Source: Acidimicrobiales bacterium (lineage in GTDB: Bacteria; Actinomycetota; Acidimicrobiia; Acidimicrobiales; SHLQ01). Taken from it: 54,408 bases of DNA. Location: NCBI GenBank assembly GCA_020628865.1, contig JAHDEJ010000015.1, positions 1 through 54,408 on the forward strand, in the 5' to 3' direction. The notes beneath the pieces are model-generated. The model had not been told where the DNA came from. It saw only the letters and a list, made by a program, of their open reading frames with translations, and made no database searches. The translations under genes were made by a program, and so were the position numbers. Below, in pieces: positions 2,361 through 54,408 of this stretch (the stretch's first letter is position 1; each line of letters opens with the position of its first letter).

Positions 2361-2377
2361 CGTGGGAACTTTCGGTT

Positions 2378-2422
2378 TCTGTGAAGCGCTGGATGCCGAT
2401 CCGGCACCTGCAGCTTCACAGA
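2378..2422 (-). other. Intercistronic stem-loop
   Basis: TCTGTGAAGC (2378-2387) and GCTTCACAGA (2413-2422) are a perfect 10-bp inverted repeat in the 76-bp gap between the ferredoxin-NrfD gene and the molybdoenzyme gene. There is no U-tract in the transcribed direction, so it looks more like an mRNA processing or stability hairpin than an intrinsic terminator. Confidence 0.5.
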
Positions 2423-2436
2423 TCGGGTTGAGGAGG

Positions 2437-32142: not shown

Positions 32143-32159
32143 CGGTCAGCGACCTCTGG

Positions 32160-33110: not shown

Positions 33111-33196
33111 ATGTGCTCAACCTAACGATCATCGGCGCTGCCACCTTGGCTGAACCGAGACATGTCGGAACGACGCAAAGAGAGCGCCAGCCGCCG

Positions 33197-33302
33197 GTTC
33201 GAAGGAGAGGCCCCCGGGAGGAACCTGGGCGATGGCGACATGCCGAAGCCGACGTTGCGAAGCTGGAGGCGAGGCATGTCGCCATCGCCCCCAGCTTCGA
33301 AC
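33197..33302. repeat. Compound inverted repeat (18 bp perfect, plus outer 8 bp)
   Basis: GGGCGATGGCGACATGCC (33227-33244) and GGCATGTCGCCATCGCCC (33273-33290) are exact complements with a 28-base loop. Outside them GTTCGAAG (33197-33204) pairs with CTTCGAAC (33295-33302). The structure fills most of the 207-bp gap between xsc and cobS, both on the minus strand. It could end the xsc transcript, or be a small palindromic mobile element. Confidence 0.65.
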
Positions 33303-33317
33303 AACGCCACAGGAGGC

Positions 33318-35084
33318 CTAGACGTAGTCCTTGTACTTCGGCAGGTGCCGCACCGGCTTCGAGAGCGCATCCTTGCGGAACGGGTCGCCCAGTTCCTTGG
33401 TGCACATGATCTCGATGACGGTGGTCTTGCCTTCGTTCATCTGCGCTTCGACGGCGGCGGTCAGCGCGGGGCCGACCTCGTCGATGTTGTCGATGCGGAC
33501 GCCTTCGGCGCCCATCGACTTGGCCATCTCGGCGTAGTTCTCGCCGCCGTCGAGCTCGCCGGCAACGAAGCGGTGGCCGTAGAAGTCGACCTGGTTCTTC
33601 TTCTCGGCGCCCCACTGGCGGTTGTGGAACACGACTGCGGTGACCGGGATGTCGTGGCGGACGGCGGTCATGAGCTCGACCATGCTCATCGCCCAGGCGC
33701 CGTCACCGGCGTAGGAGATGGCGGGACGGTCGGGGGCGGCGGCCTTGGCACCCATGATGGTGGGGAGGGCGTAGCCGCAGTTGCCCCAGCTCATCGGTGC
33801 GAAGAAGCTGCGGGGCTCTTCGAAGCGAAGGTAGCTGTTGGCGACCGAGTTGATGTTGCCGATGTCGGTGGAGACCATGGCTCGGGCCGGCATGGCCTTT
33901 TCGAGCTCGCGGAGGACCTGGCGGGGGTGCAGCCAGTTGCCTTCTTCGTTCTTGGCTTCCTCGATCATGGCGAGCGAGAAGTCGTCCTTCTCGTGGATCC
34001 ACGCGTCGAGCTCGGCCTCCCAGGCGTCCTTCTCGGCCTTGGTGGTGGCGGCGCGCTCGTCCTTGGTGGCGTCGCAGGCGAGGGTGCGCTCGTTGAGGCG
34101 CTCGAGCAGTGCGACGGCTGCTTCGCCGGCGTCGCCGTGGATGGCGACGTCGACGGTCTTCACGAGGTTGAGCATGGTGTGGTCGGCGTCGACCTGGATG
34201 ATCTTGGCGTCCTTCGGCCAGTAGTCCATGTCGTGCTGCGGGAGCGTGCCGAACGGGCCGAGACGGCTGCCGAGGGCGAGGACGACGTCGGCCTTGTTGA
34301 TGAGCTTCATGGCGGCCTTGGAGCCCTGGTAGCCGAGGGGGCCGGTCCACTGCGGGTGGCTTGCCGGGAAGCTGTCGTTGTGGAGGTAGCTGTTGACCAC
34401 CGGGCCGCCGAGGCGCTCGGCGAGCGCAACGCACTCGTCCATGGCGTCGCCCATGACGACGCCGCCGCCGCTGAGCAGGACGGGGAATTCGGCTTCGGCG
34501 AGAAGGTCGGCTGCGGCGTCGAGGCTGGTGGCGCCGCCGGGGCCACGGTCGATGCGCTTGGGCTGCGGAATCTCGACGTCGATGTCGCCGTAGAAGCGGT
34601 CACGCGGGATGTTGAGCTGGGTGGGGCCCATGTCGGAGATGGCACGGTCGAAGGCGCGGGCCGTGAGTTCGGCCATGCGGTTCTCGTTGTCGACCTGCCC
34701 CTGGTACTTCACGAACTCCTCGAACATGGGGAGCTGGTTGGCTTCCTGGAAGCCGCCGAGGCCGATGCCGCCGGAGCCGGTCTGCGGCGTGATCATGACG
34801 ACGGGGGTGTGGGCCCAGAAGGCGGCGGCGATTGCGGTGACGCAGTTGGAGATGCCGGGACCGTTCTGACCGATGACGACGCCGTGGCGACCCGAGACGC
34901 GTGCGAATCCGTCGGCCATGTGGGCGGCGCCCTGTTCGTGGACGACGGGGACGAGGCGGATGCCGGCGGGAGCGAAGATGTCCATGGCATCCATGAAGGC
35001 GGAGCCCATGATGCCGAAGGTGGTGTCGACGCCGTTGGCGACGAGGGTTTCGACGAACGCCTCGCTCGGGGTCATACGGGTCAT
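33318..35084 (-). CDS. xsc: Sulfoacetaldehyde acetyltransferase (Xsc)
   Basis: 588 residues, the usual Xsc length, after a good AAGGAG ribosome site. It is a three-domain TPP enzyme: HEQGAAHMADGFARVSG carries the catalytic glutamate, and GDGAWAMSMVEL with the following HNRQWGAEKKNQ forms the TPP/Mg site. Landmarks special to Xsc among TPP enzymes include FGIMGSAFMDAMDIF, QNGPGISNCVTA, GGFQEANQLPMFE, PLGYQGSKAAM, DYWPKDAKIIQVD and the C-terminal KELGDPFRKDALSKPVR. It converts sulfoacetaldehyde and phosphate to acetyl phosphate and sulfite, the desulfonation step shared by taurine, isethionate and some C3-sulfonate pathways. It is divergent from the IclR regulator; Pta (50366) would use its product. 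Confidence 0.92.
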   Translation of the reverse strand: MTRMTPSEAFVETLVANGVDTTFGIMGSAFMDAMDIFAPAGIRLVPVVHEQGAAHMADGFARVSGRHGVVIGQNGPGISNCVTAIAAAFWAHTPVVMITPQTGSGGIGLGGFQEANQLPMFEEFVKYQGQVDNENRMAELTARAFDRAISDMGPTQLNIPRDRFYGDIDVEIPQPKRIDRGPGGATSLDAAADLLAEAEFPVLLSGGGVVMGDAMDECVALAERLGGPVVNSYLHNDSFPASHPQWTGPLGYQGSKAAMKLINKADVVLALGSRLGPFGTLPQHDMDYWPKDAKIIQVDADHTMLNLVKTVDVAIHGDAGEAAVALLERLNERTLACDATKDERAATTKAEKDAWEAELDAWIHEKDDFSLAMIEEAKNEEGNWLHPRQVLRELEKAMPARAMVSTDIGNINSVANSYLRFEEPRSFFAPMSWGNCGYALPTIMGAKAAAPDRPAISYAGDGAWAMSMVELMTAVRHDIPVTAVVFHNRQWGAEKKNQVDFYGHRFVAGELDGGENYAEMAKSMGAEGVRIDNIDEVGPALTAAVEAQMNEGKTTVIEIMCTKELGDPFRKDALSKPVRHLPKYKDYV

Positions 35085-35140
35085 TGCATATCTCCTTGGG
35101 TTACGGAGGAAGGGGTTGGCGTGATCAAGTGTGCCTCTTC

Positions 35141-35188
35141 GTGAGAATTTCACACATTGGTGTGAGACCGTATAACAGATGCGTGAGA
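35141..35188 (-). promoter_or_regulatory. Phased GTGAGA array and palindrome upstream of xsc
   Basis: GTGAGA occurs at 35141, 35162 and 35183, exactly 21 bases apart (two helical turns), with GTGATC at 35121. The middle copy is one arm of TCACAC-attg-GTGTGA (35150-35165), a perfect 16-base palindrome. The array lies about 60-105 bases before the xsc start, where an activator would bind. Confidence 0.6.
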
Positions 35189-36165: not shown

Positions 36166-37473
36166 CTACCAGTACGACACCGCGCCGGCGTAGAGGCCAG
36201 CGAGGACTTCCTCGTCGATGTTCATCGGGGCGTTGTCGAGCAGTCGGCGCTGCTTGATCGAACCTTCGACGAGCGCATCGATGTCCGACGCGCCGTAGCC
36301 CACGCCCTGCAGGCCGTTGGGCATGTTGGTCGCCTTCATCAATTCGATGATGCGGTCCGACAGCACCTCACCCGCCTCGGCGTCGCCGGCGTCGGCAACG
36401 TCGGCGCCGAGCCACCGGGCGCCGTCGAGGTGGCGGTCCGGCGTCTGCGGTGCCGTGGTGCGGAACACCGACGGCGAGTTGACGATCACCGACATCCCGT
36501 GCGGCACCATCGGCGCGCCCATGGGATAGCCCTCAGGCTGGAAGTGCTCGCAGAGCCCCGACACCGAATACGACATGCCATGGGGTGCATGACAACCGGC
36601 GTTTCCGAAGGCGATGCCGGCCAAAGTCGATGCCCACATCAGCTGATGGCGGGCCTCGACGTCCGTGTCGTCGTTCACCGCTCGGACGAGGTAGTCGCCG
36701 AGCAGCCGGAGTGCCTCGGCGCAACCGAGGTCGCTCCAGGGGTTCGCACCCTGGCTCGACGGACGCAGCGACGGTGACGCCGCTGCCGGCCGCTGCGTGT
36801 ACGGCCGGGCGGTGTAGGACTCGAGCGCATGGCTGAGCACGTCGAAGGCACTCGACGCAACCACGTTCGGCGGCAGGGTCATGGTGACCTCGGGATCGAT
36901 CAGCGCTCGCGTCGGGCGCAGCATCTTCGACGCGATGCCCGTCTTCGCCTTCATGTCCAGGAGGTCGAAGACGGCGATGCCGGTGCATTCGCTTCCGGTT
37001 CCGGACGTGGTCGGACAGGCGATGTGCGGCTTGAGCGGGCCGGGGACCGGTGTGCCGAGCCCGATCGGGGCGTTCACGTACGCAAGAAACTCTGCGGGAT
37101 GGGTGGCGTAGAGGTTGGCGGCCTTTGCCGTGTCGATGACCGACCCTCCGCCGACGGAGATGAAGCCGTCCACCTTGGCGTCGACGGCGAACTTGGTCGC
37201 TGCCTTGAACGACTCATCGGTGGGCTCGACCCGAACGGTGTCGTACATGGCGATGTCGACCCCGGCCTCTTTGAGGGAGTCGACGACTCGCGAGACGTGC
37301 CCGGCATCGACCAGTCCCTGGTCGGTGAAGAGTGCGATTCGTTTGATGCCGAGGCTCTTCGCGATTTCACCGGCCTCGTTGAGGCATCCGGCACCGAAGG
37401 TCACGTTGGACGCATCGACGCTGAAGGCGGTGTCCGCTCCGTCCATGCCGATTTCGTAGTGGCGGCACATCAT
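36166..37473 (-). CDS. Iron-containing alcohol dehydrogenase, hydroxyacid-oxoacid transhydrogenase (ADHFE1/HOT) type
   Basis: 435 residues. The start [12 protein letters not shown], then [70 protein letters not shown] and [17 protein letters not shown] follow the hydroxyacid-oxoacid transhydrogenase branch of group III Fe-alcohol dehydrogenases closely. D and H residues in the last two segments are the iron ligands. HOT passes hydride from 4-hydroxybutyrate to 2-oxoglutarate with bound NAD. Inside a sulfonate cluster it could instead act on a hydroxysulfonate (DHPS, isethionate or sulfolactate), as other Fe-ADHs such as SarD do; that is inference. It shares the divergent gap with the FAD dehydrogenase. 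Confidence 0.85.
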
Positions 37474-37546
37474 TGTCTGGATCCCCCTGTTTGTCCGGCG
37501 GCGCGCACAACGCCGCTCCGGACGATACTGCACCTTCGACAGAAAA

Positions 37547-37564
37547 ATGGAAAGCTGTTTCCAT
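37547..37564. promoter_or_regulatory. Putative IclR operator B overlapping the FAD-dehydrogenase start
   Basis: ATGGAAAGCTGTTTCCAT is a perfect 7+4+7 palindrome whose last two bases are the first two of the ATG at 37563. Its core GGAAAGCTGTTTCC matches GGAAAGATGATTCC at 40431. It lies in the divergent gap with the Fe-ADH gene. Confidence 0.65.
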
Positions 37565-40328
37565 GATCAGCCCGCCCGGCCCCGACGCCCTCGTCCGCAC
37601 CGACCGGGCCACTCGGGTCGTCTACGCCACCGACAACTCGATCTACCAGCTGGAACCTTCGGGTGTTGCGCTTCCGCGAACGGCCGACGACATCGTGCGG
37701 CTCGTGGCCGAAAACGCTGCGGCGGCACGACCGCAGCCGATCGTCGCCCGCGGCGGCGGAACCGGAACGAACGGCCAGAGCCTGACCACCGGCTTGATGA
37801 TCGATTGCAAGCGGCACCTCAACGAGATCATCTCGCTTGACGTCGAGGAACGCTCCGCCTGGGTGCAGCCGGGCATCGTCACCGATGAGCTGAATCGCCA
37901 GCTCGCGCCCCACGATCTGTTCTGGGCTCCGCATACCTCGACCACGAGCCGCGCCACCGTGGGCGGCATGATTGCGACCGATGCTGCGGGGAAGGGATCC
38001 CTCGTCCACGGGCGAACCCATCGCCACGTACTCGCCCTCGATGTGGTTCTTGCCGACGGTTCCACGTTTCGAGCAGAACCACTACCGATCGCCGAAGCGG
38101 AAGCTCGAGCGGCCGGCGGCAACTGGGCGGCGGCCATCTGGCGCGGGATCCTGGACCTTCCGCTCGATGAGGACACCGACCTCGGCCTGCCAGAACTCGC
38201 CCGCGGGTTCAGCGGCTACGGCATCGATCGGGTTCGCCGCGATGGCATGGTCGACCCTGTTCCCCTTCTGGTGGGCTCGGAGGGCACACTTGCGATCACC
38301 AGCGCGGCAAAGATCCGACTGACGCCACGGCCGGCGCACACCGTCCTCGTGATTGCCGGCTACGACTCGTTCGACGATGCCCTCCGAGATGCCGTCGAGC
38401 TCCGAGCTACCGAACCGACCGCAATCGAATCGTTCGACGAACGGACACTGGACGCCGGAACGGCCTCCCCGGCGTGGCCGGCCCTCGCTCCCGTCGTCGG
38501 TGACGGCGGCGGCTCCGTCCTCCTGCTGGAGTACTCGGGAGCGGAGCCGGTCGACACCGACGCGATCATGGCCGCCATCGCCGCCAACGGCCGCTCCTCC
38601 ACCCAGCGGGTGGTGCACGATGCCGGCGAGCAGAAGATGGCGTGGAAGGTCCGCGCCGACGCGGTCGGCCTGTTGGCCAAGATCGTCGTCGGCGCCCCTG
38701 AACGATCGGCCCGGCCGACGGCATTCGTGGAGGACTGTGCGGTGCCGGTCGCCAACATGTGCGAGTTCATCGCGGACTTCCGTTCGGCGCTCGACGACTT
38801 CGGGGTGGAGTACGCCATGTTCGGCCACGCGGACGTCGGCTGCGTCCACGTTCGCCCGGCCCTCGACCTGACCGATCCCGAGCACGAGGCGCTGGTGCGC
38901 TCGATCACCGATCGGGTTGTCGAGGTGATCGGCTCGCATGGTGGAGTCCTCTGGGGCGAGCACGGTCGTGGTTTCCGCGGCGACCCGGTCGAGAAGTTCC
39001 TTCCCGAAGCGACGATCGCCCTCATGCGCGAGGTGAAGACGATCTTCGATCCCGGTGATCTCCTCAACCCGGGGAAGTTGTACCGGCCGGTCGACTCGAC
39101 CGAACCGATCGTGCCGCTCGATTCGGCACCGCTGCGAGGCCACGCGAACCGCCGGGTGTCGCTGGAGGTTCGGGCGGAGTACGAGTCCGCGTTCGCGTGT
39201 AACGGAAACGGGCTCTGCCACCATCACGCCGAGACCGAGGTGATGTGCCCTTCGTACAAGGCAAGCGGCGACCCGGCGCTTTCCCCGAAGGGACGGGCCG
39301 ACCTGATGCGGGCGTGGCTGGCCGGACCGCCGGACGCCGACTTCGAGGATCAGATGGCGGAGAACTTCAGCCAGTGCCTGTCGTGTTCGGCGTGCACCGG
39401 CCGTTGCCCGGTCGAGGTGGACGTCACCGAGCTGAAGTCACAGTTCCTCGAGCGGTACCACGAATCGCGGCGCCGCCCGCTGGCGCACCACGTCCTCCGG
39501 CGTTTCGAATCGCTCGCTGTACTCGCTGCCCGAACCCCCGGGCTCGCCCGACTGGGAGCGGGACTCGCCGGACGCGTGTTGGGCCTGGTTGACCTGACCA
39601 CGCCGAAGGCGGCCGTCGCGCATGGTGCGCCCGGATTCTCTGCAGGTGGGCCACCTGTCGATCTCGTGGTGGTTCCCGACGTGTTCACGGCGGTCATCGA
39701 GCCGGCGACGCTGGCGGCTTCCGTGGACGTACTGCAGCGCGTCGGCTTCTCCGTCGCGGTCGCCCCGTTCCGGCCGTCCGGCAAGTTCGAGCACGTGAAG
39801 GGCATGCGCTCGGCCTTTGCGCGTGCGGCGTCGGCGCAACGACAGTTACTGGAGGAGATCGCTGGTACGGGCGCCCGCGCCGTCACGATCGAACCTGCAG
39901 TCTCACTACTCCACGGACACGAATACCGGATTGCGGATCCGGCGCACCCGAGCCACTCGGTTCACCACCTGGCGGAAGTCCTGCTCGAACGGATCGACCG
40001 CGTGGAACGGGCAGCCGAGTCGAGGACGGTTCAGCTCTTCGGCCACTGCACCGAGACGGCGTTGGCGTCGCAGTGGATCGATGCATGGGAACAGCTCCTG
40101 CTCGCCGCAGGCCACGACGTGCAGCGTGCCAGCGCCGGATGTTGCGGGATGGCAGGCATCTTCGGACACGAACGCGAGAACCAGGCGACATCGACCCACC
40201 TCTGGAATCTGGGATGGGCGCGGGCGATCGACGCAGACCGCTCAACGGTCGCCACCGGCTACAGCTGCCGGTCACAGGCGGAACGCCACGGCGTTCCGGG
40301 TGTGGACCACCCGGTCCATCTGCTCTGA
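37563..40328 (+). CDS. FAD/Fe-S 2-hydroxyacid dehydrogenase, GlcD-GlcF/YdiJ type (candidate sulfolactate dehydrogenase)
   Basis: 921 residues. An FAD-binding-4 domain (about 40-210; [19 protein letters not shown] and [15 protein letters not shown]) is followed by an FAD-oxidase C domain (about 250-520; [13 protein letters not shown]). A ferredoxin-like module has Cys groups at C546 (CNGNGLC) and C605 ([12 protein letters not shown]). The C-terminal cysteine-rich CCG-type domain includes [14 protein letters not shown]. This fused layout is that of D-2-hydroxyglutarate/D-lactate dehydrogenases feeding the quinone pool. Sulfolactate dehydrogenase SlcD is also a GlcD relative, so in this cluster oxidation of 3-sulfolactate to sulfopyruvate is proposed. 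The ATG at 37563 lacks a ribosome site and is overlapped by a palindrome. Confidence 0.85.
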
Positions 40329-40478: not shown

Positions 40479-41771
40479 ATGACCACCGAACCAACGCGCG
40501 CTTCCGCGCGTGTCCGAATGCGGTTGCTCGCACTGCTGGCGATGATCTTCGTCGTCGCAGCGGCCTGCACCGGCGATGCGGTCAACAGTGACAACGCCGG
40601 AGGCGACGACTCGTCGAGCAGCTCCGACGACTCGGGCAGCAGCGACAGCTCCGGAAGCGACGATGACGCATCCTCCTCCTCGGACGACGACGAGGGCGAT
40701 GAGACCGAGTCCGTCGACCTCACCGCCCAGGGCGAGACCTTCGAGTTCCAGGTCCAGACCGGCGTGCCGGCATCGTCCGTGTACCACGCAGAGATCGTCG
40801 AATGGGGCGAGCGCCTCGAGCGCATGTCCGGCGGTCGCCTCGTGGCCGAGGTCGTCCCGTCCGGCGCCGTGGTCGGCGCCCTCGAGATCCTCGACGCCGT
40901 CGACACCGAGATCGTGCCGGTCGGCATGGCCTGGTCCAACTACTGGACCGGCAAGAACCCGACCGCTGCGCTCTTCTCGAACCCGCCGGTGGGCTCCACC
41001 GGTCTCGACCAGAGCTCCTCGCTCGCATGGATGTACGACGGTGGCGGCCTTGAGCTGTACGAGCGTCTCTACACCGAGGAAATCGGCGTGAACGTGAAGC
41101 CGCTCCCGGTCTGCCCGATGGGCCCGGACCCCTTCGGTTGGTTCAGCGAGCCGATCACCAGCGTCGCCGATGTGCAGGGCCTGCCCTTCCGCTCGCCTCC
41201 CGGCCTGCCGGGCCTGACCTTCCAGGAGCTCGGCGTGGATGCAATCGCCATGCCCGGTGGCGACATCGTCCCGTCCGCCCAGAGCGGCATCATCGACGGT
41301 GCGGAGTGGATCTCCCCGGCGGACGACCGTGCACTCGGCCTCTCCGACGTGTGGGACAACTACTACCTCCAGGGTCTGCACCAGTCCACGGACATCGGTG
41401 AGCTCCTGTTCAACATCGACTGGTGGGACTCCCTGCCGGCCGACCTGCGCGAGATGATCATGATCGCCACCCAGGCAACCATCGTCGATTGCCAGAACGT
41501 GTCGATCACGGTCAACGCCGATGCGGTCGCCGAGTACCAGGCAGAGGGCATCAACATCTTCAACACTCCGCCGGAGTTCTACGACGCCTTCATCAACGCA
41601 TGGGAGACCGTGGCCGCCGACCTCGCAGCGGAGGATCCGTTCTTCGCCGAGGTGCGCGAGTCGCAGCAGGCCTACGCCGAGCGTGTCATGCCGTTCCGTC
41701 TGACCATCACCGAGCTCTACCAGGAAATCGGCGAGACCTACTTCCCTGAGAAGGTCGGTCAGAATCCGTGA
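40479..41771 (+). CDS. TRAP transporter substrate-binding lipoprotein (DctP family)
   Basis: 430 residues behind a GAGGGGG ribosome site. A lipobox (FVVAAAC, Cys30) is followed by a long Ser/Asp linker (about residues 38-78), then the DctP fold (TGVPASSVYHAEIVEWGERL onward). Q/R-rich pocket segments include LPFRSPPGLPGLTFQELG. It captures an organic anion outside the membrane and delivers it to the fused DctQM permease, whose GTG overlaps this stop by four bases. TRAP systems (TauKLM, HpsKLM, IseKLM) are standard importers for sulfonates, and a palindrome shared with xsc lies upstream. The exact ligand (DHPS, cysteate, sulfolactate, taurine) is inference. Confidence 0.9.
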   Translation: MTTEPTRASARVRMRLLALLAMIFVVAAACTGDAVNSDNAGGDDSSSSSDDSGSSDSSGSDDDASSSSDDDEGDETESVDLTAQGETFEFQVQTGVPASSVYHAEIVEWGERLERMSGGRLVAEVVPSGAVVGALEILDAVDTEIVPVGMAWSNYWTGKNPTAALFSNPPVGSTGLDQSSSLAWMYDGGGLELYERLYTEEIGVNVKPLPVCPMGPDPFGWFSEPITSVADVQGLPFRSPPGLPGLTFQELGVDAIAMPGGDIVPSAQSGIIDGAEWISPADDRALGLSDVWDNYYLQGLHQSTDIGELLFNIDWWDSLPADLREMIMIATQATIVDCQNVSITVNADAVAEYQAEGINIFNTPPEFYDAFINAWETVAADLAAEDPFFAEVRESQQAYAERVMPFRLTITELYQEIGETYFPEKVGQNP

Positions 41772-43879
41772 CAAGCACGACCGACGCCGAAGTAGCCGCC
41801 AGGTACGGCGTAACGGTCGACGAGGAAGCCGAGGGTATTGCTGAACCGTGGAACACCGACGGGGGCAATATCCGATGGATAGCCGCACTCAGTGAGTGGG
41901 TAGGGAAGGCCGCAGCATGGCTGACCCTCCCACTCCTGGCGGTCCTCGGAGGCTCGGCGCTGTGGCGCACGCTGGGGATCGGCAACTCGATCGTGTGGGC
42001 GCAAGACGTCGGCTACATGATCTACGCAACGCACTTCCTGCTGGGAGCTGCGTACACGCTGAAGCGCAGCGGCCACATCCGGACCGACTTCGAGTACCGG
42101 AAGTGGAGCACGAAGCGCCAGGCGGGCATGGACATCGTCATCTATGGACTGCTGTTCATTCCGGTGATGATCCTGGCGCTCGACGTGTCGTTGGAGTTCG
42201 CGTACAAGTCATTCGACCAGCGGGAAACGACGATCCTGAGCCCGTGGGATGGTCCGCTCTGGCCGCTCAAGGCGATGCTGCCACTCGGCATCTTCCTGTG
42301 GCTCCTGCAGTCCATCTCCGAGCTGGTGAAGTCGGTCCGGGCCTACCGGGCCGGTGCCTGGGAGCCGGAAGCTCCCCTGTCCAAGCGCAGGACCGGAGCG
42401 CTCGCTGCCATTGCGGTTGCGGTCGTGATCGGTCTCGTGGGGCTGACCGGCGAGTGGGCACCCGACGACGTTCCTCGCGGCGAGGATCCGAGCGATCAGG
42501 TCTTCGGGCTTGCCGATCTGATCTCGAGCGTCGTTGGGGTCTTCGGCGGCATCCTGCCCGACTTCTCCACCGAGACGATCGGATTCCTCATGCTGGGGGC
42601 GTTGTTCGTCGCCATCGTGGCCGGTTTCCCGATCGCACAGACCCTGCTCGTGATGAGCTTCGGGTTCGGTGCATGGGCAATCGGCGACACCGTGTTCAAC
42701 CTGTTCACGTTGTCGGCGATCAACAACATGACCAACGTGCAGCTGGCCGCCGTGCCGCTGTTCATCTTCATGGGGTACCTGCTCGAGCAGGCCGGTCTGA
42801 TGGACCGATTGTTCCGGGCGTTGCAGCTCGCGATGGCGAACCTTCGCGGTTCGTTGTATCTCGCCGTCATCTCGGCGGCGACGATCTTCGCAGCGGCCAC
42901 CGGCATCGTCGGTGCATCGGTGACCCTGATCGGCCTGATGGCGATCCCGTCGATGACCCGCAGCGGCTACGACACGAAGTTGTCGGCCGGTGCGATCACC
43001 GCCGGCGGCACGCTGGGCATCCTCATCCCGCCGAGCATCATGCTCGTCGTGATGGCACCGGTGCTCGGTGTCAACGTGCTCGAGCTTTTCGCGGCGGCGA
43101 TCTTCCCCGGGTTGATCCTGTCCGGCCTCTACATCGCCTACGCGATGGTGCGGTCGTGGAAGAACCCGGAGCTGGGGCCGCCGCTGCCCAAGGATGAGCA
43201 GACGCTGTCCCGGAGCGAGATCGCCAAGGAGATCCTCCTCGGCATCATCCCGCCGACCGTGCTCATTGCGGTCACGTTGGGGTCGATTCTGTTCGGCATC
43301 GCCACCACGGTGGAGGGTTCGGCATTGGGCGCCTTCGGTGCTCTGCTGCTCGCCATCGGCTCGCGCCGGCTCGACGTTGCGCTGATGCGGGGTGCGCTCG
43401 AATCCACGATGCTGACGACATCGATGATCATGATCCTGATCGTTGCGTCGGACTTCTTCGGTCGGGTGTTCTCCCGGGTCGGAAGTGCGTCGGCGATGGC
43501 GAACACGCTCGTGGAGATGCAGCTGCACTTCCTGATCATGTTGGGCCTGATCCTGTTGCTGATCTTCGTGCTCGGCTGGCCGCTGGAATGGGTCCCGATC
43601 GTGTTGATCTTCATCCCGATCCTGCTCCCGGTCGTCGAGGAGTTCGGATTCGACAAGGTCTGGTTCGGGATCTTGGTGGCAGTGACCCTGCAGACGGCGT
43701 GGTTGAGTCCACCGGTTGCGCTGTCGGCGTACTTCCTCAAGGGGGTTGCGCCGCACTGGGATCTGAAGGACATCTACGGCGGCATGTTCCAGTTCATGGG
43801 ATTGCAGGTGGTCGGCCTGATCATCGTGCTGGCCTTCCCGCCAGTGGCCCTGTGGCTGCCGTCAGTGCTCGTGAGTTGA
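41768..43879 (+). CDS. TRAP transporter permease, fused DctQ-DctM
   Basis: 703 residues. The first 190 are the small four-span DctQ domain (VWAQDVGYMIYATHFLLGAA). After a charged loop, the 12-span DctM domain begins near residue 270 (GFLMLGALFVAIVAGFPIA) with the conserved LFIFMGYLLEQAGL, GITAGGTLGILIPPS-like and WLSPPVALSAYF motifs. It imports the DctP-bound substrate using a sodium gradient. The GTG start at 41768 overlaps the DctP stop. The N-terminal 35 residues are hydrophilic and not part of the usual DctQ. It ends just before a hairpin at 43902-43942, toward the convergent LysR gene. Confidence 0.93.
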   Translation: MTSTTDAEVAARYGVTVDEEAEGIAEPWNTDGGNIRWIAALSEWVGKAAAWLTLPLLAVLGGSALWRTLGIGNSIVWAQDVGYMIYATHFLLGAAYTLKRSGHIRTDFEYRKWSTKRQAGMDIVIYGLLFIPVMILALDVSLEFAYKSFDQRETTILSPWDGPLWPLKAMLPLGIFLWLLQSISELVKSVRAYRAGAWEPEAPLSKRRTGALAAIAVAVVIGLVGLTGEWAPDDVPRGEDPSDQVFGLADLISSVVGVFGGILPDFSTETIGFLMLGALFVAIVAGFPIAQTLLVMSFGFGAWAIGDTVFNLFTLSAINNMTNVQLAAVPLFIFMGYLLEQAGLMDRLFRALQLAMANLRGSLYLAVISAATIFAAATGIVGASVTLIGLMAIPSMTRSGYDTKLSAGAITAGGTLGILIPPSIMLVVMAPVLGVNVLELFAAAIFPGLILSGLYIAYAMVRSWKNPELGPPLPKDEQTLSRSEIAKEILLGIIPPTVLIAVTLGSILFGIATTVEGSALGAFGALLLAIGSRRLDVALMRGALESTMLTTSMIMILIVASDFFGRVFSRVGSASAMANTLVEMQLHFLIMLGLILLLIFVLGWPLEWVPIVLIFIPILLPVVEEFGFDKVWFGILVAVTLQTAWLSPPVALSAYFLKGVAPHWDLKDIYGGMFQFMGLQVVGLIIVLAFPPVALWLPSVLVS

Positions 43880-43950: not shown

Positions 43951-44871
43951 TCAGCGCACGAGGAGCCGCTCTGCCTCAGTCGATTCGAAGTGGGAAACGC
44001 AGGCGTCGACGAACGCTCGGACAAGCCGGCGCGGGTTGTCGGCGAACCAACCGATGGCGATTCGCAGTGGCGGAACCCCCGGGTCCAGTGGTACGGCGCG
44101 CAGGGCAGCGCCGTTGTAGGCCTGGTCGACCAGCGGCTGCATGTGGAGGAGCGAGACACCGAGGCCGGCGGCCACGAGGCTGCGCACCATCTCGAGGTGG
44201 GTCGCGGTGGATATCACTCGTGGCGAGATGCCGGCCTGTTGGAACACGTCGTTGTAGTACTCGGTGATGTTCGGTTGATCGAGCAGGATGAATGGCTCGT
44301 CGCCGACCTCGGCCAGCGACAGCGAGGAGCGACTTGCCAACGGGTGCTCGGCCGGGACCAGCAGGTAGCCGGGTAGTTCCAGGAGCGTCTGGTAGGTGAC
44401 CTCGGGGCGGGTCTGTTCGGGGAAGCAGACGATGACGTCATGGGCCCCGGAGAGCAATCCGTCCTGCGCCGCCTGGTTGTCGCAGTCCACGAAGGTGATG
44501 TCGAGGTCGGTGTTGCCCTCGAAAATTCCGTCGACGATGGCGGGCATGAACGCCGGAGCAATCGGCGCGTAGTAGCCGACTCGGAGCGTTCCGGTCAGCT
44601 GGGTTCGGAGATCAGCCCCTTCCTTGAGGAGGGTGTTGTACTCGTCGACCAGATGCTGAATGCGCGGCTTGAGGGCGTGGCCGGCAGCGGTGAGGGCGAC
44701 GCCTCGGGCTCGATGACGGGTGGTGAGTTGCAGCCCGAAGGCCGCCTCGACCTGATTCACGCCGGCGAGCACGGCCGAGGGAACGACGTGAAGACTCCGG
44801 GCCGCGCCGGCGATCGTGCCGGCCTCAACGGTTGCCAGAAAGTAGTTCAGTGCCTTGAGCGAGACGTCCAT
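43951..44871 (-). CDS. LysR-family transcriptional regulator
   Basis: 306 residues from the ATG at 44869-44871 (a GTG at 44893-44895 would add eight). The HTH is MDVSLKALNYFLATVEAGTI then SLHVVPSAVLAGVNQVEAAF; the Ala-Val-Leu in the recognition helix departs from the usual SQPAxS. The substrate-binding-like domain follows (LRVGYYAPIAPAFMPAIV). It diverges from the decarboxylase/HpsN-aminotransferase operon across about 117 bases and is the likely regulator of those genes, perhaps with an acidic amino acid or sulfonate as ligand. No clear T-N11-A box was found in the gap. Confidence 0.9.
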   Translation of the reverse strand: MDVSLKALNYFLATVEAGTIAGAARSLHVVPSAVLAGVNQVEAAFGLQLTTRHRARGVALTAAGHALKPRIQHLVDEYNTLLKEGADLRTQLTGTLRVGYYAPIAPAFMPAIVDGIFEGNTDLDITFVDCDNQAAQDGLLSGAHDVIVCFPEQTRPEVTYQTLLELPGYLLVPAEHPLASRSSLSLAEVGDEPFILLDQPNITEYYNDVFQQAGISPRVISTATHLEMVRSLVAAGLGVSLLHMQPLVDQAYNGAALRAVPLDPGVPPLRIAIGWFADNPRRLVRAFVDACVSHFESTEAERLLVR

Positions 44872-44988
44872 CAGGCCAGCCTGCCAGTTCGTCACATTTT
44901 TTGATGAGTCTTGACACAGAAATCAGGTTTTCAGACCTCTCGTGCTCGCCTACGGTTCGGGCAGCGACCACAACCGAGGAGTCCCTCC

Positions 44989-46497
44989 GTGTCGAAGTCA
45001 CTCGAGGAAGCCATTGCCGAACGCGCATTGGCCTACGTCACCGCACCACCCTCCGATCCGGACGACGTGATTCGCTTCGCCTCGCCGACGGAGCTGGTCG
45101 ATGCGTTCGCCGGCACGGTGGCGCTGACCTTCGATGCCGAAGCTCCGAACGAGTCGGCGGATTCGATTCTCGACGCAGTCGACCTCGTCATCCGACACTC
45201 GGTCCACACGAGTCACCCCCGGTTCCTCAACCAGAACTTCGCCGGTCCGGACCCGGTCTCGGTCGTGGGCGACTGGTTGGGTGCTGCGCTGAACACGACG
45301 GGCGCAACGTTCGAGGCGGCGCCCGTGTTCACGCTGATGGAGAGCGCGGTGCTCCACAAGCTCGGCCGCATCGCCGGCTACGTCGAGGAAGGTTCCGATC
45401 CGCTGCCCACGCTCCCACCCGGACTCTTCTGTCCGGGCGGCAGCACGGCCACGCTGTACGCGCTGCAGCTCGCCCGCCATCGGCACCAGCCCGACGTGGC
45501 CACGGCCGGAGCCAACGGCGACCGCCTCACCATGTTCGTCAGCGATGCCGGACACTACGCCGCCACCAAATCCGCGGCGCTGCTCGGCATCGGCTCGGAT
45601 GCCGTGATCAAGGTGGCGAGCGATGAACACGGCGCCATGCTCGTCCCCGCCCTCGAAACTGCTGTTGCGGCGTCGCGAGCTGCCGGCGACGTTCCGTTCG
45701 CCGTCATCGGCACGTCGGGAACGACCGTTACCTCCGCATTCGATCCGCTCGACGCCATCGCCGACGTGTGCGAGCGGGAGTCGCTCTGGTTCCACGTCGA
45801 CGGCTGCTACGGCGGATCGGCGCTCTTCTCCCCCACGCATCGTCACCTGCTCGACGGCGTCGAACGCTCGGACTCCTTCGTGTGGAACCTCCACAAGATG
45901 ATGGGCATGACGCAGCAGTGCACGGCACTTCTGGTTCGCAAGCCGGAACAGCTGGCCCCATGTTTCGCCGGCAAGGCCGACTACCTGTTCCAGCCAGACA
46001 AGCTCTATGCCGACTACGACTCGGGTGACCGCACGTTCCAGTGCGCCCGCCGGGTCGATGTCTTGAAGCTGTGGCTCGCATGGAAGCACCATGGCGACAT
46101 CGGCTTCGCCAACCGCATCGATCACGCCGTCCGCATGGCCGACCACACCCGAGCCCGGATCGCCGCCAGCGGCGGCACGTTCCACCCGGTTGCCGGCGTG
46201 TTCACCAACGTCGTGTTCTGTTGGGTGCCCCCGCACCTCCAGCCAATCGATGCATCGGTCACGCACCTCGATCAACTGGCGGAGGATGTGCGGGCCGAGC
46301 TCCACGCACTGCCGCCGCGCATCAAGTCGCAGATGCAGGCCGCCGGCACGGCGATGGTCGGCTTTCAACCGGTGCAGGGAATGAACACGTTCCGGATGCT
46401 CTACATGAACTCGACCGTCACCGAGGCCGACGTCGACGCGATCCTCGACCGCATCGACGCGTACGGCACCGCGGCGCTCGCCGAGATGGGAGCCTGA
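44989..46497 (+). CDS. Group II PLP-dependent decarboxylase, cysteine-sulfinate/cysteate (CSAD)-like
   Basis: 502 residues from a GTG with GAGGAG upstream. It follows eukaryotic CSAD/GAD sequences closely: FHVDGCYGGSALFS, THRHLLDGVERSDS, then NLHK with K303 as the PLP lysine, DYLFQPDKLYADYDSGDR (Y340 is the catalytic-loop tyrosine that favours plain decarboxylation), FQCARRVDVLKLWLAWK, CWVPPHL and MVGFQPV. CSAD/GAD enzymes decarboxylate acidic amino acids such as cysteine sulfinate, cysteate, glutamate or aspartate. Being two bases from the HpsN-aminotransferase fusion, cysteate to taurine is the favoured reaction. Glutamate or aspartate decarboxylation cannot be excluded from sequence. Confidence 0.88.
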   Translation: MSKSLEEAIAERALAYVTAPPSDPDDVIRFASPTELVDAFAGTVALTFDAEAPNESADSILDAVDLVIRHSVHTSHPRFLNQNFAGPDPVSVVGDWLGAALNTTGATFEAAPVFTLMESAVLHKLGRIAGYVEEGSDPLPTLPPGLFCPGGSTATLYALQLARHRHQPDVATAGANGDRLTMFVSDAGHYAATKSAALLGIGSDAVIKVASDEHGAMLVPALETAVAASRAAGDVPFAVIGTSGTTVTSAFDPLDAIADVCERESLWFHVDGCYGGSALFSPTHRHLLDGVERSDSFVWNLHKMMGMTQQCTALLVRKPEQLAPCFAGKADYLFQPDKLYADYDSGDRTFQCARRVDVLKLWLAWKHHGDIGFANRIDHAVRMADHTRARIAASGGTFHPVAGVFTNVVFCWVPPHLQPIDASVTHLDQLAEDVRAELHALPPRIKSQMQAAGTAMVGFQPVQGMNTFRMLYMNSTVTEADVDAILDRIDAYGTAALAEMGA

Positions 46498-46499
46498 CG

Positions 46500-48971
46500 A
46501 TGGCTGAGTACCTCAAGCGCAAGCAGGACGGCGCCGCTGTGCAGCCGCCCGACGTGTCTGCCACCGTGCGAGACCTGCTCGCCGGGCTCCGGTCGGGCCG
46601 GGAGGAGCGGGCCGAAGAGCTCGCCCGTGACTTCGACGGCTGGAGCGGCCCGATCCTGGTAGATCCCGCCGACGTCCGGGCCGCTCGCTCCGCGCTCGCC
46701 CCCACGCTGGTCGACGACATCGAAGCCGCCCATCGCAACATTCGGGACTTCGCCGTCGCCCAACGCGAGACACTCGGCGAGTTCGAGATGGAGGTGTCGC
46801 CCGGCCTGCGCGCCGGACATCGTCTCGTTCCCGTGAACGTGTCCGGCTGCTACGTGCCTGCCGGGCGATTCGCCCACATCGCGTCGGCGCTCATGAGCGT
46901 CACCACCAGCCGCGCCGCCGGCGTGGAGACGGTCGTCGTCACCTCCCCCGCACGCGACGATCGGGGCGGCGTCCATCCGGCGATCCTCGTGGCCGCCGAC
47001 GTCGCCGGCGCGGATCACGTGCTCGGCCTCGGCGGCGTGCAGGGCATTGGCGCCCTCGCATTCGGCCTGTTCACCGGCGAGCCGGCCGACATCCTCGTCG
47101 GCCCCGGCAACTCGTATGTCGCCGAGGCGAAACGGCAGTTGTTCGGCGAAGTCGGTATCGATGTGGTCGCGGGCCCGACCGAGTCGATGATCGCCGCAGA
47201 CGAGACCGCCGATGCGCACCGGGTCGCCGTCGATCTGGTCGGCCAGGCCGAACACGGCCCGGACTCACCGGTCTGGCTCGTCACCACGAGCCGCACGCTG
47301 GCCGAGGAAGTCGCGGCGCTCGTTCCGGGCATCGCCGATGCCCTCACCGAACCCGGCCGCACCTCGGCCCTCACCGCCTGGGAGAACCACGGCGAGATCA
47401 TCCTCGCCGCCGACCGCGAAGAAGCCGCAGCGGTGTGCGACGACTACGCAGCCGAACATCTCCAGGTGATGGCCGCCGACCTCCCCTGGTGGCACGCCCG
47501 CCTTCGCAACTACGGGTCGCTGTTCCTGGGCGAACAGGCAACCGTGACCTTCGGCGACAAGAGCGCCGGGCCGAACCACATCCTCCCAACGGGCCGAGCC
47601 GCCCGATATACGGGCGGGTTGAACGTGTTGAAGTTCCTGAAGCAGCTCACCTTCCAGGAGCTCACCACCGAGGCGGCGGTGGGACAGGGCGAGCTGTCTG
47701 CCCGAATCTCCCGCTACGAGGGCATGGAGGGCCACGCCCGCTCGGCAGACCTGCGAGCCGAAGCGCAGGTCGATGCGGCTCCGGCGACCGACCCGAGCAC
47801 GCTCGATCTCGACTTCACTGCGCAGGAGCCGATCCCACCGCAAGCGGTCGCTCGAGCCAACGACCTGATGGCCTCCGGAAAGCTCTTCCGGTACGGCGAG
47901 GCCGGAACCGACGAAGCGGATGCAGCGCTGCTCGAAGCAGAGTTCGCCGCGCTCGTCGGCCGCAAGTACTGCGTGGCGTTCAACTCGTGCGGTGCGTCGC
48001 TCGCCGTTGCGCTGATGGCGGCGGGTGTGGAGCGGGGCGATTCGGTGATGATGAACGCGTTCACGCTGGCTCCCGTGCCCGGAGCCGTGGCGCACGCTGG
48101 CGCCACACCGGTGTTCGTTGGCATCACGTCGGACTGGCACATCGACCTCGACGACCTTCGCCGAGCGGCAGAGACCAGCGGCGCCCGATGGCTCCTGCTC
48201 TCCCACATGCGCGGCCACATCACCGACCTCGATGCGGTGATGAAGGTGTGCAACGAACTCGGCGTGCAGGTGATCGAGGACTGCGCCCACACGATGGGCG
48301 CGTCGTGGGCCGGCCGACCGACCGGAACGTTCGGCGTCGCCGGATGCTTCAGCACCCAGTCGTTCAAGCACGTGAACTCGGGCGAAGGCGGATTGTTGGT
48401 CACCGACGACGAGGACCTTGCCGCCAAGGCCGTTCTCTACTCCGGCTCGTACATGCTCTACGAACAACACGGCGCCCGACCGTCGGCCGAGGTGTTCGAA
48501 CGCCACCGATTCACCACGCCGAACTTCTCGATGCGGATGAGCGCGCTCGCGGCTGCGCTCGTCCGACCACAGCTGGCCCAGCTCCCCGACCGCGCCCGAC
48601 GCTGGAACGACCGCTACCGGCAACTCGCCGACCTGCTCAACGACGTCGACGGCATTCGAGTTCCGGCCCGTCACGGTGACGAGGACTTCGTCGCCTCGTC
48701 CATCCAGTTCGATGTGGACGGCGATGTCGCCGCCATGGTCGAGCGGGCGGCAGCTCAGGGTGTGTTCATCAAGTGGTTCGGTGCGCCGGACCCGCACGGC
48801 TTCACCAGCCGGTTCGATCACTGGCGCTACGCGCCCGAGCAGACCCTTCACGCCACGCAGCAGGTCCTGGCCGGGTTGTGCGACATGCGCATCCCGCTCA
48901 CGATGACCGAGGCCGACGCCACGCAGATCGCCGGAGTGATCCGGACGGCGCTGACCGACACCGCCGACTAA
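46500..48971 (+). CDS. hpsN: Fusion: HpsN-type sulfopropanediol dehydrogenase (HisD family) + DegT/DnrJ PLP aminotransferase
   Basis: 823 residues in one uninterrupted frame. Residues 1-430 are a histidinol dehydrogenase homolog of the HpsN branch: VSGCYVPAGRFAHIASA, GLGGVQGIGALAFGLFTG, PADILVGPGNSYVAEAK, DLVGQAEHGPDSP, YAAEHLQVMAADLPWW, FGDKSAGPNHILPT and ARISRYEGMEGHARS. HpsN oxidises (R)-2,3-dihydroxypropanesulfonate to sulfolactate with NAD. After a short linker, residues 445-823 are a DegT/DnrJ/EryC1 aminotransferase (AFNSCGASLAVALMAAGV, IEDCAHTMGASWAG, CFSTQSFKHVNSGEGGLLVT with K623 as PLP lysine). I know of no described HpsN fused this way. The second domain could transaminate sulfopyruvate to cysteate, supplying the decarboxylase encoded two bases upstream. 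There are no his genes nearby, so histidine synthesis is unlikely. Confidence 0.88.
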   Translation: MAEYLKRKQDGAAVQPPDVSATVRDLLAGLRSGREERAEELARDFDGWSGPILVDPADVRAARSALAPTLVDDIEAAHRNIRDFAVAQRETLGEFEMEVSPGLRAGHRLVPVNVSGCYVPAGRFAHIASALMSVTTSRAAGVETVVVTSPARDDRGGVHPAILVAADVAGADHVLGLGGVQGIGALAFGLFTGEPADILVGPGNSYVAEAKRQLFGEVGIDVVAGPTESMIAADETADAHRVAVDLVGQAEHGPDSPVWLVTTSRTLAEEVAALVPGIADALTEPGRTSALTAWENHGEIILAADREEAAAVCDDYAAEHLQVMAADLPWWHARLRNYGSLFLGEQATVTFGDKSAGPNHILPTGRAARYTGGLNVLKFLKQLTFQELTTEAAVGQGELSARISRYEGMEGHARSADLRAEAQVDAAPATDPSTLDLDFTAQEPIPPQAVARANDLMASGKLFRYGEAGTDEADAALLEAEFAALVGRKYCVAFNSCGASLAVALMAAGVERGDSVMMNAFTLAPVPGAVAHAGATPVFVGITSDWHIDLDDLRRAAETSGARWLLLSHMRGHITDLDAVMKVCNELGVQVIEDCAHTMGASWAGRPTGTFGVAGCFSTQSFKHVNSGEGGLLVTDDEDLAAKAVLYSGSYMLYEQHGARPSAEVFERHRFTTPNFSMRMSALAAALVRPQLAQLPDRARRWNDRYRQLADLLNDVDGIRVPARHGDEDFVASSIQFDVDGDVAAMVERAAAQGVFIKWFGAPDPHGFTSRFDHWRYAPEQTLHATQQVLAGLCDMRIPLTMTEADATQIAGVIRTALTDTAD

Positions 48972-50365: not shown

Positions 50366-51259
50366 CTATCGCTGCGATTGCAAGGCCGCGATCACCGCGA
50401 CGTTCACGATGTCCTCTGCGGAGCAGCCTCGGGAGAGGTCGTGCATCACGCCGTTGATGCCCTGAAGGAGCGGACCGAATGCCTGTGCGCCACCGAGCCG
50501 CTCGGTGATCTTGTAGGCGATGTTGCCGCTGTCGAGGTCCGGGAAGACGAAGACGTTGGCGCGGCCGGCCACAGGCGAATCTGGCGCCTTCTTGGTTCCG
50601 ACCGAAGGAACCCAAGCGGCATCGAACTGCAGCTCGCCGTCGATCGGGAGCTCTGGATCGGCCTGTTGTGCGAGCGCGGTGGCGGCGCGCACCTTGTCCA
50701 CGCGGGGATGTTCGGCGCTGCCCTTGGTGGAGAACGACAACATCGCTACACGCGGGTCCTCGCCCGAGAGCTGGCGGAACGTCCCGGCGGAGGAGACGGC
50801 GACAGAAGCAAGCTGCGCCGCGTCCGGGTCCGGCAACACGCCGCAGTCCCCGTAGACGATTGGCTGGCCATCGGGCAGCACGAAGAAGAAGCAGCTGCTG
50901 ATGGCCTCGACGCCCGGGGCGACGCCGAGCAGGTGGATCCCGGCCCGCAGCACATCCGCGGTGGATCGGCTTGCGCCGGCGACGCATCCGTCCGCCTCGC
51001 CGGTGCGCACCATCAGCGTGGCCACGTGGAGCGGATCGTCCAGGTTCGCTCGCTCGCCGACCTCGGCCGCTGCGGCAACAACGGCCGGGGTGCGAAGGGC
51101 GTCGAGATCGTCGGCGACCACGGCGTTCGCCAGCCCACGGTCGTTCAAGGTGATGGCGGCGGAGTGGGCCCGCTCGTCACCGGCGTCGGCGAGCACGATT
51201 CGTTGCGGTGCAGCCGCGGCCCGATCAAACCACGACTGCTGAATGGGGGAGATCTCCAT
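50366..51259 (-). CDS. pta: Phosphate acetyltransferase
   Basis: 297 residues, a compact Pta without an N-terminal regulatory domain. [76 protein letters not shown] and [19 protein letters not shown] are the conserved CoA/acetyl-phosphate-binding segments of the PTA_PTB family. It converts acetyl phosphate and CoA to acetyl-CoA. Since Xsc in the same window makes acetyl phosphate, Pta closes the sulfonate route into central metabolism; Xsc-Pta pairing is standard in such clusters. A TAGGTT box six bases before the ATG suggests a leaderless mRNA. Confidence 0.92.
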
Positions 51260-52677: not shown

Positions 52678-53505
52678 TCACCCGGCGAGCCAGTCGCCCA
52701 GGCGCCGAAGTGCAAAATCCACAAGTGCACTCACTCCAACCAGCGCGAAGATCGCGACCAGCACGAAGCCGTACTGGAAGAAGGTTCGGGCCGTCCAGAT
52801 CATCGCGCCCAACCCCTTCTGAAACGAGATCAGTTCGCCGGCCACCAGCACGTTCCAGTTGACGGCGGCGGCAACCCGCAGTGCGAGGAAGGTGGCAGGC
52901 AGTGCCTGGCGCACGGTCCGCAGATCGACTCGGTCCGCTGACGAGCCCGGCATCGGGCCTCGCCCGGCGACGTGGTCGCGTACGGCGATTGCGACGATGA
53001 AGAACGTCGTGACCGCGAGCAGACTCACAAGCCGCATGCTCCCGGGCCCGAACCTCACGAAGATCAGCGGAAGGAGCCCGAGCACGGGCACGAGTCGGAA
53101 GAAGCCGAACGCCGGTTGCACGATCGATCGAATCGTGCGGGAAGACCCGATCGCCAAGCCGGCGACCACGCCGGCAACGCCACCGAGCCCCAGCCCAAGC
53201 GCCATTCGCATGAGGCTCATCGCCAGGTGCTCCCACAGGGTGACCCGTTGAAATCCGTCAGTCGCCAACTGCCAGAAGTCCTCGGCCGTGGCTCGCGGAC
53301 CAGGCAGAACCTCCGGATCGACGATGCCCAGCTGCGCCGAAACCACCCACAGCGCAAGCATCGCGCCCACACCGGCAACCCCGAGCAGGCGATTCCCGCT
53401 GGAGACTGCTTCTCCGCCAAGGATCAGCGGGACAGCCCGACTTCCAGCCGGCCGATCCACCAGGCCTCCGGATACATTGCCGCCATCCACCGCCGACTCG
53501 GCCAT
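52678..53505 (-). CDS. ABC transporter permease, NitT/TauT (SsuC/TauC) type
   Basis: 275 residues behind AAGGAG. Five to six spans and the BPD_transp_1 fold are clear (FWQLATDGFQRVTLWEHLAM, GLGGVAGVVAGLAIGSSRTI, VPVLGLLPLIFVRFGPGS, AGELISFQKGLGAMIW). The family imports sulfonates, nitrate or thiamine precursors. The coupling-helix loop is unusual: where relatives have the G-A-S-x-x-Q-x-x-x-x-V-x-L-P type EAA motif, this one has a shortened VDLRTVRQALPATFLALRV stretch after a Gly/Pro-rich segment, so ATPase contact may be altered. It is a paralog of the next permease, 102 bases upstream on the same strand. Confidence 0.88.
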   Translation of the reverse strand: MAESAVDGGNVSGGLVDRPAGSRAVPLILGGEAVSSGNRLLGVAGVGAMLALWVVSAQLGIVDPEVLPGPRATAEDFWQLATDGFQRVTLWEHLAMSLMRMALGLGLGGVAGVVAGLAIGSSRTIRSIVQPAFGFFRLVPVLGLLPLIFVRFGPGSMRLVSLLAVTTFFIVAIAVRDHVAGRGPMPGSSADRVDLRTVRQALPATFLALRVAAAVNWNVLVAGELISFQKGLGAMIWTARTFFQYGFVLVAIFALVGVSALVDFALRRLGDWLAG

Positions 53506-53607
53506 CGAGCTCCTTCCGCCGCTCGGGCGCCATCTCGGGCCCCGGGTTCGACGGAAGGATGCTACGGGCGGAAGGGGTGCTGCACACCCGAATCCGAGTG
53601 CGCTGAA

Positions 53608-54408
53608 TCAGCCTCGGCCGCGCCAGGGGATGAAGCGTTCCTCGGCCTTGCGCATGATGAGGTCGAGGATCACACCGATCACGCCGATGATGATGATGCC
53701 GAAGACGACGAGCTCGTTGCGGAAGAACGTGCGTGCGGTCCAGATCATTGCGCCGAGGCCGGTCTGGGCGCCGACGAGTTCGGCGGCGACGAGCGTGCCC
53801 CAGCACACGCCGATGGCGACACGCATGCCGACGAAGATCTCGGGAAGAGCGTTCGGCAGGATCACGTTGCGAAGGATCTGCTGCTTCGATGCGCCGAGCG
53901 AATAGGCGGCATGCACCTTGGACAGCCGCACCCCGGTGACGCCGGCGCGTGCCGCAATCACCATGATGAAGAAGGCGGCGAAGAAGAGCATGACCACGGC
54001 CGGGGTCTCGCCGATGCCGAACCAGAGGATCAGCAGCGGGATGAATGCGAGCGGCGGGACGGGACGGAAGAGCTCGATCAGCGGATCGAAGATGGCTCGC
54101 AACGTGTTGTTGAGGCCCATGGCGAGCCCGACCGGCACACCGACGACCACACCGATGCCGAACCCGATGAGGATGCGGCGCAGGCTGGCGAAGACGTGTT
54201 CGGCCAGCGTGACTCGCTGGAAGCCGTCCGTGGCGAGCTCCCATCCGCCCTGGATGGTCTCGATCGGCCCGGGGAAGAAGGTGGGGTCGGCAATGCCGAG
54301 CGCCTCGGAGAGCAACCAGATGATGAACAGCACGACGAGTGTGACGAGGCTGATCAGGCGGTTGCCCGTGACGGCCGAGCCATCGCCGAAGGTGACGGTC
54401 TTGCGCTG
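53608..54408 (-). CDS. ABC transporter permease, NitT/TauT (TauC) type, partial
   Basis: The frame is open to the right edge and shows 266 codons. The true start lies outside: residues at the edge (VTGNRLISLVTLVVLFIIW) align with SGNRLLGVAGVGAMLALW inside the paralog at 52678-53505. It has a normal EAA loop (AAYSLGASKQQILRNVILPN then ALPEIFVGMR) and the VPPLAFIPLLILWFGIGE core. It probably works with an ATPase and a binding protein encoded just beyond the window. Taurine or another sulfonate is a reasonable ligand given the neighbourhood, but nitrate or other small anions are possible. Confidence 0.9.
   Translation of the reverse strand, partial: QRKTVTFGDGSAVTGNRLISLVTLVVLFIIWLLSEALGIADPTFFPGPIETIQGGWELATDGFQRVTLAEHVFASLRRILIGFGIGVVVGVPVGLAMGLNNTLRAIFDPLIELFRPVPPLAFIPLLILWFGIGETPAVVMLFFAAFFIMVIAARAGVTGVRLSKVHAAYSLGASKQQILRNVILPNALPEIFVGMRVAIGVCWGTLVAAELVGAQTGLGAMIWTARTFFRNELVVFGIIIIGVIGVILDLIMRKAEERFIPWRGRG

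Follow-up and report, generated by a model that had tools for sequence, protein, structure and literature searches.

The window analysed here is the whole 54,408-nucleotide stretch of Acidimicrobiales bacterium contig JAHDEJ010000015.1 (assembly GCA_020628865.1; forward strand, positions 1 to 54,408). At 46500-48971 (+) it contains one open reading frame of 823 codons that begins with ATG, ends with TAA and has no internal stop codon, and that starts 2 bp after the stop codon of the upstream decarboxylase gene. A Pfam search identified a Histidinol_dh domain at residues 17-419 (E = 2e-117, profile positions 9-410 of 411) and a DegT_DnrJ_EryC1 domain at residues 475-814 (PF01041; E = 1e-57, 196 bits against a cut-off of 19.8, profile positions 26-359 of 360), both nearly full length. 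The PLP lysine, K623, lies in CFSTQSFKHVNSGEGG and is invariant in the 26 sequences aligned. An AlphaFold2 model built on an alignment of 56 relatives had a mean pLDDT of 91, with two confidently predicted domains joined by a short flexible linker (residues 423-430, pLDDT below 50), although their relative orientation is uncertain (pTM 0.54). The original prediction, that an HpsN-type dehydrogenase is fused in frame to a DegT-family aminotransferase with both domains complete, is confirmed. The features of the locus and the rest of the window are listed below.

Table. Features of the 54,408-nucleotide window.
Coordinates	Strand	Feature	Remarks
3-3999	-	Molybdopterin oxidoreductase (786 aa, cut by the window edge) and a fused Fe4S4-NrfD protein	Resembles a sulfite-oxidising SoeABC-type or related complex, which would fit disposal of sulfite from Xsc
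4081-4980		LysR gene	Beside the NIR_SIR gene
4999-7404	-	Nitrite/sulfite reductase (NIR_SIR)	Probably assimilatory
21361-24849	+	Large protein with POR (pyruvate/2-oxoacid ferredoxin oxidoreductase) and DUF6537 domains	
30457-33110	-	CobT- and CobS-like cobaltochelatase subunit genes	Next to Xsc
33318-35153	-	Xsc, sulfoacetaldehyde acetyltransferase	997 bits, cut-off 676; Pfam scan of 33162-35144 on the + strand empty
36166-37533	-	Fe-type alcohol dehydrogenase, weakly like SarD	Between Xsc and the TRAP genes; possible sulfoacetaldehyde or hydroxyacid enzyme
37473-40328	+	YdiJ/GlcD-like FAD-FeS dehydrogenase	Below the YdiJ cut-off; start uncertain; between Xsc and the TRAP genes; role uncertain, possible sulfoacetaldehyde or hydroxyacid enzyme, conceivably a 2-hydroxyacid dehydrogenase
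40479-41771	+	TRAP solute-binding protein (DctP)	
41768-43879	+	TRAP permease, fused DctQ-DctM	
43951-44895	-	LysR regulator	Divergent from the decarboxylase-fusion pair
44911-46497	+	PLP decarboxylase nearest to cysteine sulfinate decarboxylase	Proposed L-cysteate to taurine; start codon uncertain
46500-48971	+	Fused HpsN-type dehydrogenase/DegT-type aminotransferase	823 aa
46500-47759	+	HpsN-type domain	Residues 1-420
47760-47922	+	Linker and N-terminal start of the DegT half	Residues 423-430 predicted disordered
47923-48968	+	DegT/DnrJ/EryC1/StrS domain	Pfam residues 475-814; similarity to stand-alone relatives begins somewhat earlier, near residue 439
50366-51259	-	Phosphate acetyltransferase (Pta)	Would take acetyl phosphate from Xsc
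52678-54408	-	Two ABC permease genes	The one at 53608 is nearest to taurine permease TauC (below its cut-off)

The N-terminal half is about 54% identical to Cupriavidus pinatubonensis HpsN, the R-DHPS 3-dehydrogenase (structures 8v35 and 9cp7; Ruegeria pomeroyi HpsN is 8wwe), and its best structural match is the C. pinatubonensis enzyme with L-cysteate bound (9cp7). In C. pinatubonensis numbering it retains the equivalents of the sulfonate ligands His126 and Lys353, the zinc-site residues Gln248, His251, His411 and Asp352, and the catalytic Glu318 and His319 (residue roles from PMC11382572). The sulfonate motif, GRY(A/S)H in HpsN, is GRFAH here (Y to F). His126 and Lys353 are conserved in 79 of 79 HpsN of the DegT-associated type, and His126 is also present in all seven hpsNOP-type HpsN but absent from HisD-like relatives, suggesting that the substrate is likely to be sulfonated. 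One residue, 321, separates the two groups, being Gln in most DegT-type HpsN and Thr in six of seven hpsNOP types. The sequence exceeds the curated hisD cut-off (TIGR00069, 383.5 bits against 243.8), but this model does not separate HpsN from HisD. We rejected an ordinary histidinol dehydrogenase identity because HisD, which shares the fold and the amino alcohol to amino acid chemistry but is only about 29-34% identical, has a non-His residue (mostly Leu) at the position of His126; other HisD-family genes exist elsewhere in the genome. Naming this half HpsN by similarity is therefore fair, although its lineage is uncharacterised and its operon is not a DHPS operon. The characterised HpsN are stand-alone proteins, in operons with hpsO/hpsP and no DegT. 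Neither hpsO nor hpsP is present in the window, and a search of the genome for HpsO returned only generic SDR hits at 35-39%.

The C-terminal half has the fold and PLP lysine of DegT/DnrJ/EryC1/StrS aminotransferases but is only about 21% identical to solved members, falls below every named NCBIfam equivalog cut-off and has its own invariant motifs, such as MRGH. Its nearest solved relatives (e.g., 2-deoxy-scyllo-inosose aminotransferase 2c7t and KdnA 5k8b) act mostly on keto-sugars or keto-cyclitols, whereas the genomic context here is sulfonate rather than sugar.

Distribution of fused and separate genes

To determine whether the fusion is genuine, we scanned public genomes with the whole protein, which returned 80 loci (numbered here with the prefix L, as are the plasmid records). 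Both halves are present in 73 of these and are adjacent on one strand in 60. A single open frame spans both halves in five other Acidimicrobiia (L009, L010, L011, L041 and L089; about 74-75% identical), which form one supported clade with the window, and in a Phycisphaeraceae MAG (L025), which is placed elsewhere in the tree and represents an independent fusion. The other acidimicrobial relatives checked (L031-L033 and L035-L037) have two overlapping or closely spaced genes, and the halves are separate, usually adjacent genes in Proteobacteria, Desulfobacterota and SAR324. Separate adjacent genes in the same class could point to an assembly artefact or frameshift, but we rejected this as highly improbable because six distinct acidimicrobial genomes and one planctomycete share open fused frames. 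The condition set beforehand as refuting the fusion, halves that are always separate together with a frameshift in this assembly, is thus not fulfilled. In a sample of 296 genomes of the class, only the window's genome and one other have the full-length protein, so it is patchy in its own class.

In the phylogeny, the characterised hpsNOP-type HpsN lineages are nested within a larger set of DegT-associated HpsN, with the window's lineage separate from them, so no deep split marks a change of substrate; however, the sample was drawn with the fused protein as query and is biased. The hpsN on one contig (L060), from a MAG labelled Klebsiella pneumoniae, groups with Burkholderiales-type sequences, suggesting a mislabelled or contaminated bin.

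Gene partners of the two halves

Annotated plasmids provided a clean contrast between two types of operon. Ten of ten plasmid operons with this DegT carry cysteate lyase (cuyA) and cysteate racemase (cuyB) with hpsN, commonly with a LysR regulator, TauABC or TRAP uptake and a YeiH-type exporter, and lack hpsO. Seven of seven operons with hpsO/hpsP have a LacI regulator, with suyAB or comDE in most, and lack DegT, cuyA and cuyB. DegT, CuyA, CuyB and often TauABC thus stand in for the HpsO, HpsP and SuyAB/ComDE of the hpsNOP-suyAB and hpsNOP-comDE DHPS operons, with which they share HpsN and the C3-sulfonate theme. Examples of CuyA and CuyB exceed their NCBIfam equivalog cut-offs (563 against 450 bits and 271 against 190 bits). 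A search of all plasmids with the DegT half alone found only those ten records. Paracoccus seriniphilus carries one operon of each type on two plasmids (L119 and L130), a DegT-cuyAB-hpsN operon and an hpsNOP operon with two UxaA-family genes (suyAB type), so the two are unlikely to be redundant and the strain is well suited to telling their substrates apart. A Ruegeria sp. SCSIO 43209 plasmid (L133) has a cuyA-cuyB-hpsN operon and no DegT match anywhere on its 512 kb, which makes it a natural control for the role of DegT. A TauA-type binding protein is found in 16 of 73 loci, and the Ensifer example exceeds the taurine-binding equivalog cut-off, which fits an aminosulfonate. In 19 of 28 carriers, including this one, the best HpsO match is only a generic SDR (177 bits or less).

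The window lacks CuyA, and in this genome the best CuyA-like hit (294 bits) is below the cut-off of 450 and no SuyB match was found at E = 1e-60, and we rejected a CuyA or SuyAB exit here on these grounds. Instead, the gene immediately upstream of the fusion encodes a Pyridoxal_deC family (PF00282) decarboxylase whose closest solved relative is cysteine sulfinate decarboxylase (CSAD 365 bits, against 348 for GAD1 and 335 for GADL1), although the margin over glutamate decarboxylase is small. Across 49 genomes carrying the pair or part of it, a homolog of this decarboxylase (E at or below 1e-70) was found in 13, none of which has CuyA over cut-off, compared with 25 of the 36 others (Fisher p = 1e-5), and all 13 have Xsc. 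The 13 genomes are ten Acidimicrobiia and three Oceanospirillaceae, so independent events are few and the p value overstates the case. In addition, 32 of 73 loci show no CuyA, CuyB or decarboxylase within the stretch examined. Nevertheless, two unrelated cysteate-consuming exits imply that the pair makes cysteate, and we consider this product well supported. In the literature consulted, neither CuyA/CuyB cysteate desulfonation nor the exit from taurine through sulfoacetaldehyde, Xsc and Pta is tied to an HpsN-DegT input.

Proposed role in cysteinolate catabolism

The original prediction also proposed that sulfolactate/sulfopyruvate is oxidised and aminated in place, and this interpretation is only partly supported. 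A sulfonate-type HisD-family oxidase and an aminotransferase do appear to belong to one catabolic route, and the DegT half does fall below every named equivalog cut-off. In the proposed DHPS route (pathway c of PMC11382572), the HpsN half would make R-sulfolactate, a separate dehydrogenase would make sulfopyruvate and the DegT half would aminate this to L-cysteate (the missing Coa), followed by CuyB/CuyA or decarboxylation. This route also yields cysteate and so fits CuyA/CuyB and the decarboxylase, the N-terminal half has every residue of an R-DHPS dehydrogenase, the gene for the sulfopyruvate aminotransferase of R. pomeroyi is stated to be unknown (PMC11382572, which mentions no DegT), and the window has a YdiJ/GlcD-like dehydrogenase and a TRAP transporter nearby. 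However, the route needs a sulfolactate dehydrogenase between the halves, so that the fusion would join non-consecutive steps, and a search restricted to the SlcD-type oxidase, leaving out types such as SlcC/ComC, found it in only 1 of 73 loci. hpsO/hpsP are missing from most of the operons and often from the genome, CuyA-CuyB-HpsN occurs without DegT, and known DegT enzymes mostly use keto-sugars rather than alpha-keto acids. In Neoroseomonas (L051) and two Acetobacteraceae (L071 and L081), the DegT gene sits with hpsO/hpsP, SuyB is in the genome and CuyA is absent, so making cysteate from sulfopyruvate would lead to no known exit there. We therefore regard the route via sulfopyruvate as doubtful. 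The partner context points instead to cysteinolate and its C2 ketone.

The explanation we favour, with moderate confidence, is that the fused protein is a bifunctional catabolic enzyme for the C3 aminosulfonate cysteinolate (2-amino-3-hydroxypropane-1-sulfonate, a hydroxymethyl taurine). In this view, the HpsN-type half would oxidise the primary alcohol in two NAD+ steps to L-cysteate, chemically the same as histidinol to histidine, with the amine taking the zinc site that the hydroxyl of R-DHPS takes in HpsN. The DegT half would be a PLP aminotransferase working at C2, interconverting cysteinolate and 3-hydroxy-2-oxopropane-1-sulfonate, the ketone that HpsO/HpsP handle in DHPS operons, and so supplying or re-forming the enantiomer the oxidase accepts. 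Cysteate would then be decarboxylated to taurine in this organism and leave as sulfoacetaldehyde through Xsc and Pta, while many other carriers would use CuyB and CuyA. This reading is favoured by the TauA-type uptake, by the Ruegeria plasmid, as expected if the HpsN step itself yields cysteate, by the chemistry of HisD and by the binding of L-cysteate in the active site of C. pinatubonensis HpsN as a mimic of R-sulfolactate (PMC11382572). The genomes with DegT, hpsO/hpsP and no CuyA suggest that the shared node is plausibly the C2 ketone, and CuyB next to CuyA implies that HpsN makes L-cysteate, so DegT may serve to convert the other enantiomer or the ketone to L-cysteinolate.

Our analysis establishes the fusion, the integrity of its domains, the active-site residues, the conserved partners and the replacement of CuyA by the decarboxylase plus Xsc. 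The substrate and catalytic activity of the N-terminal half, the DegT reaction with its substrate, direction and stereochemistry, any channelling, the activity of the decarboxylase on cysteate and the step from taurine to sulfoacetaldehyde are inferred from sequence and context, as no activity is known for any member of this DegT subfamily or for any HpsN from a DegT operon, and no taurine transaminase or dehydrogenase was located in this genome. HpsN is R-specific on DHPS (PMC11382572). Algal cysteinolate is usually described as the D (S) form, which would need inversion. If HpsN alone turns cysteinolate into cysteate, the need for DegT is not fully explained. An alternative is that the DegT half is an epimerase rather than a net aminotransferase, inverting D-cysteinolate to L-cysteinolate on PLP as the counterpart of HpsO/HpsP epimerising DHPS. 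This would fit the position of DegT in place of hpsO/hpsP, the R-specificity of HpsN and the L-cysteate product implied by CuyB, but it is unlikely because no epimerase is known in the DegT family and K623 and the conserved core are those of ordinary aminotransferases.

Cysteinolic acid reaches intracellular levels like those of DHPS and DMSP in marine microalgae (PMC8703288), and roseobacters use it in lipids (PMC11631085). Published work describes cysteinolate as abundant, detects the C2 ketone in algae and regards its biosynthesis as unsettled (PMC8703288, PMC11131964, PMC8319176). Literature searches for cysteinolate catabolism or a DegT-HpsN link gave nothing relevant and no description of catabolic genes for cysteinolate, although prior description cannot be excluded because these did not extend to a 2022 review of cysteinolic acid metabolism (Burchill and Williams 2022, doi 10.1039/D2OB00362G; cited in PMC11631085). 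It is about as likely as not that the pair represents an undescribed, widespread bacterial pathway, in which an HpsN-like cysteinolate dehydrogenase and a new DegT subfamily acting on a C3 amino/keto-sulfonate, fused at least twice independently, feed cysteate into either CuyA or decarboxylase-taurine-Xsc. If correct, this would assign a step in sulfur recycling to a conserved gene pair found in several phyla, warn that many genes annotated as hisD or DHPS dehydrogenase may act on an amino alcohol, give a DegT subfamily a non-sugar, sulfonate role and offer a marker gene pair for metagenomes. The fusion itself hints at which two steps are consecutive.

In some carriers the substrate may be an N-methylated relative, for example a betaine of cysteinolate, with the pair forming the lower part of a demethylation pathway. 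A DAO-GCV_T demethylase-type oxidase is present in 12 of 73 loci, including three of the fused loci (L010, L011 and L041), and an MttB protein in 5, and some have betaine-type ABC transporters, FolD and PurU. As a general explanation this is very unlikely, since these genes were not found in the window and are absent from most loci, and demethylation would still end at cysteinolate. MttB-family proteins and DAO-GCV_T oxidases lie near hpsN, DegT and in some loci cuyAB at L085:2858-6850, L118:2797-6947, L039, L065, L072 and L073.
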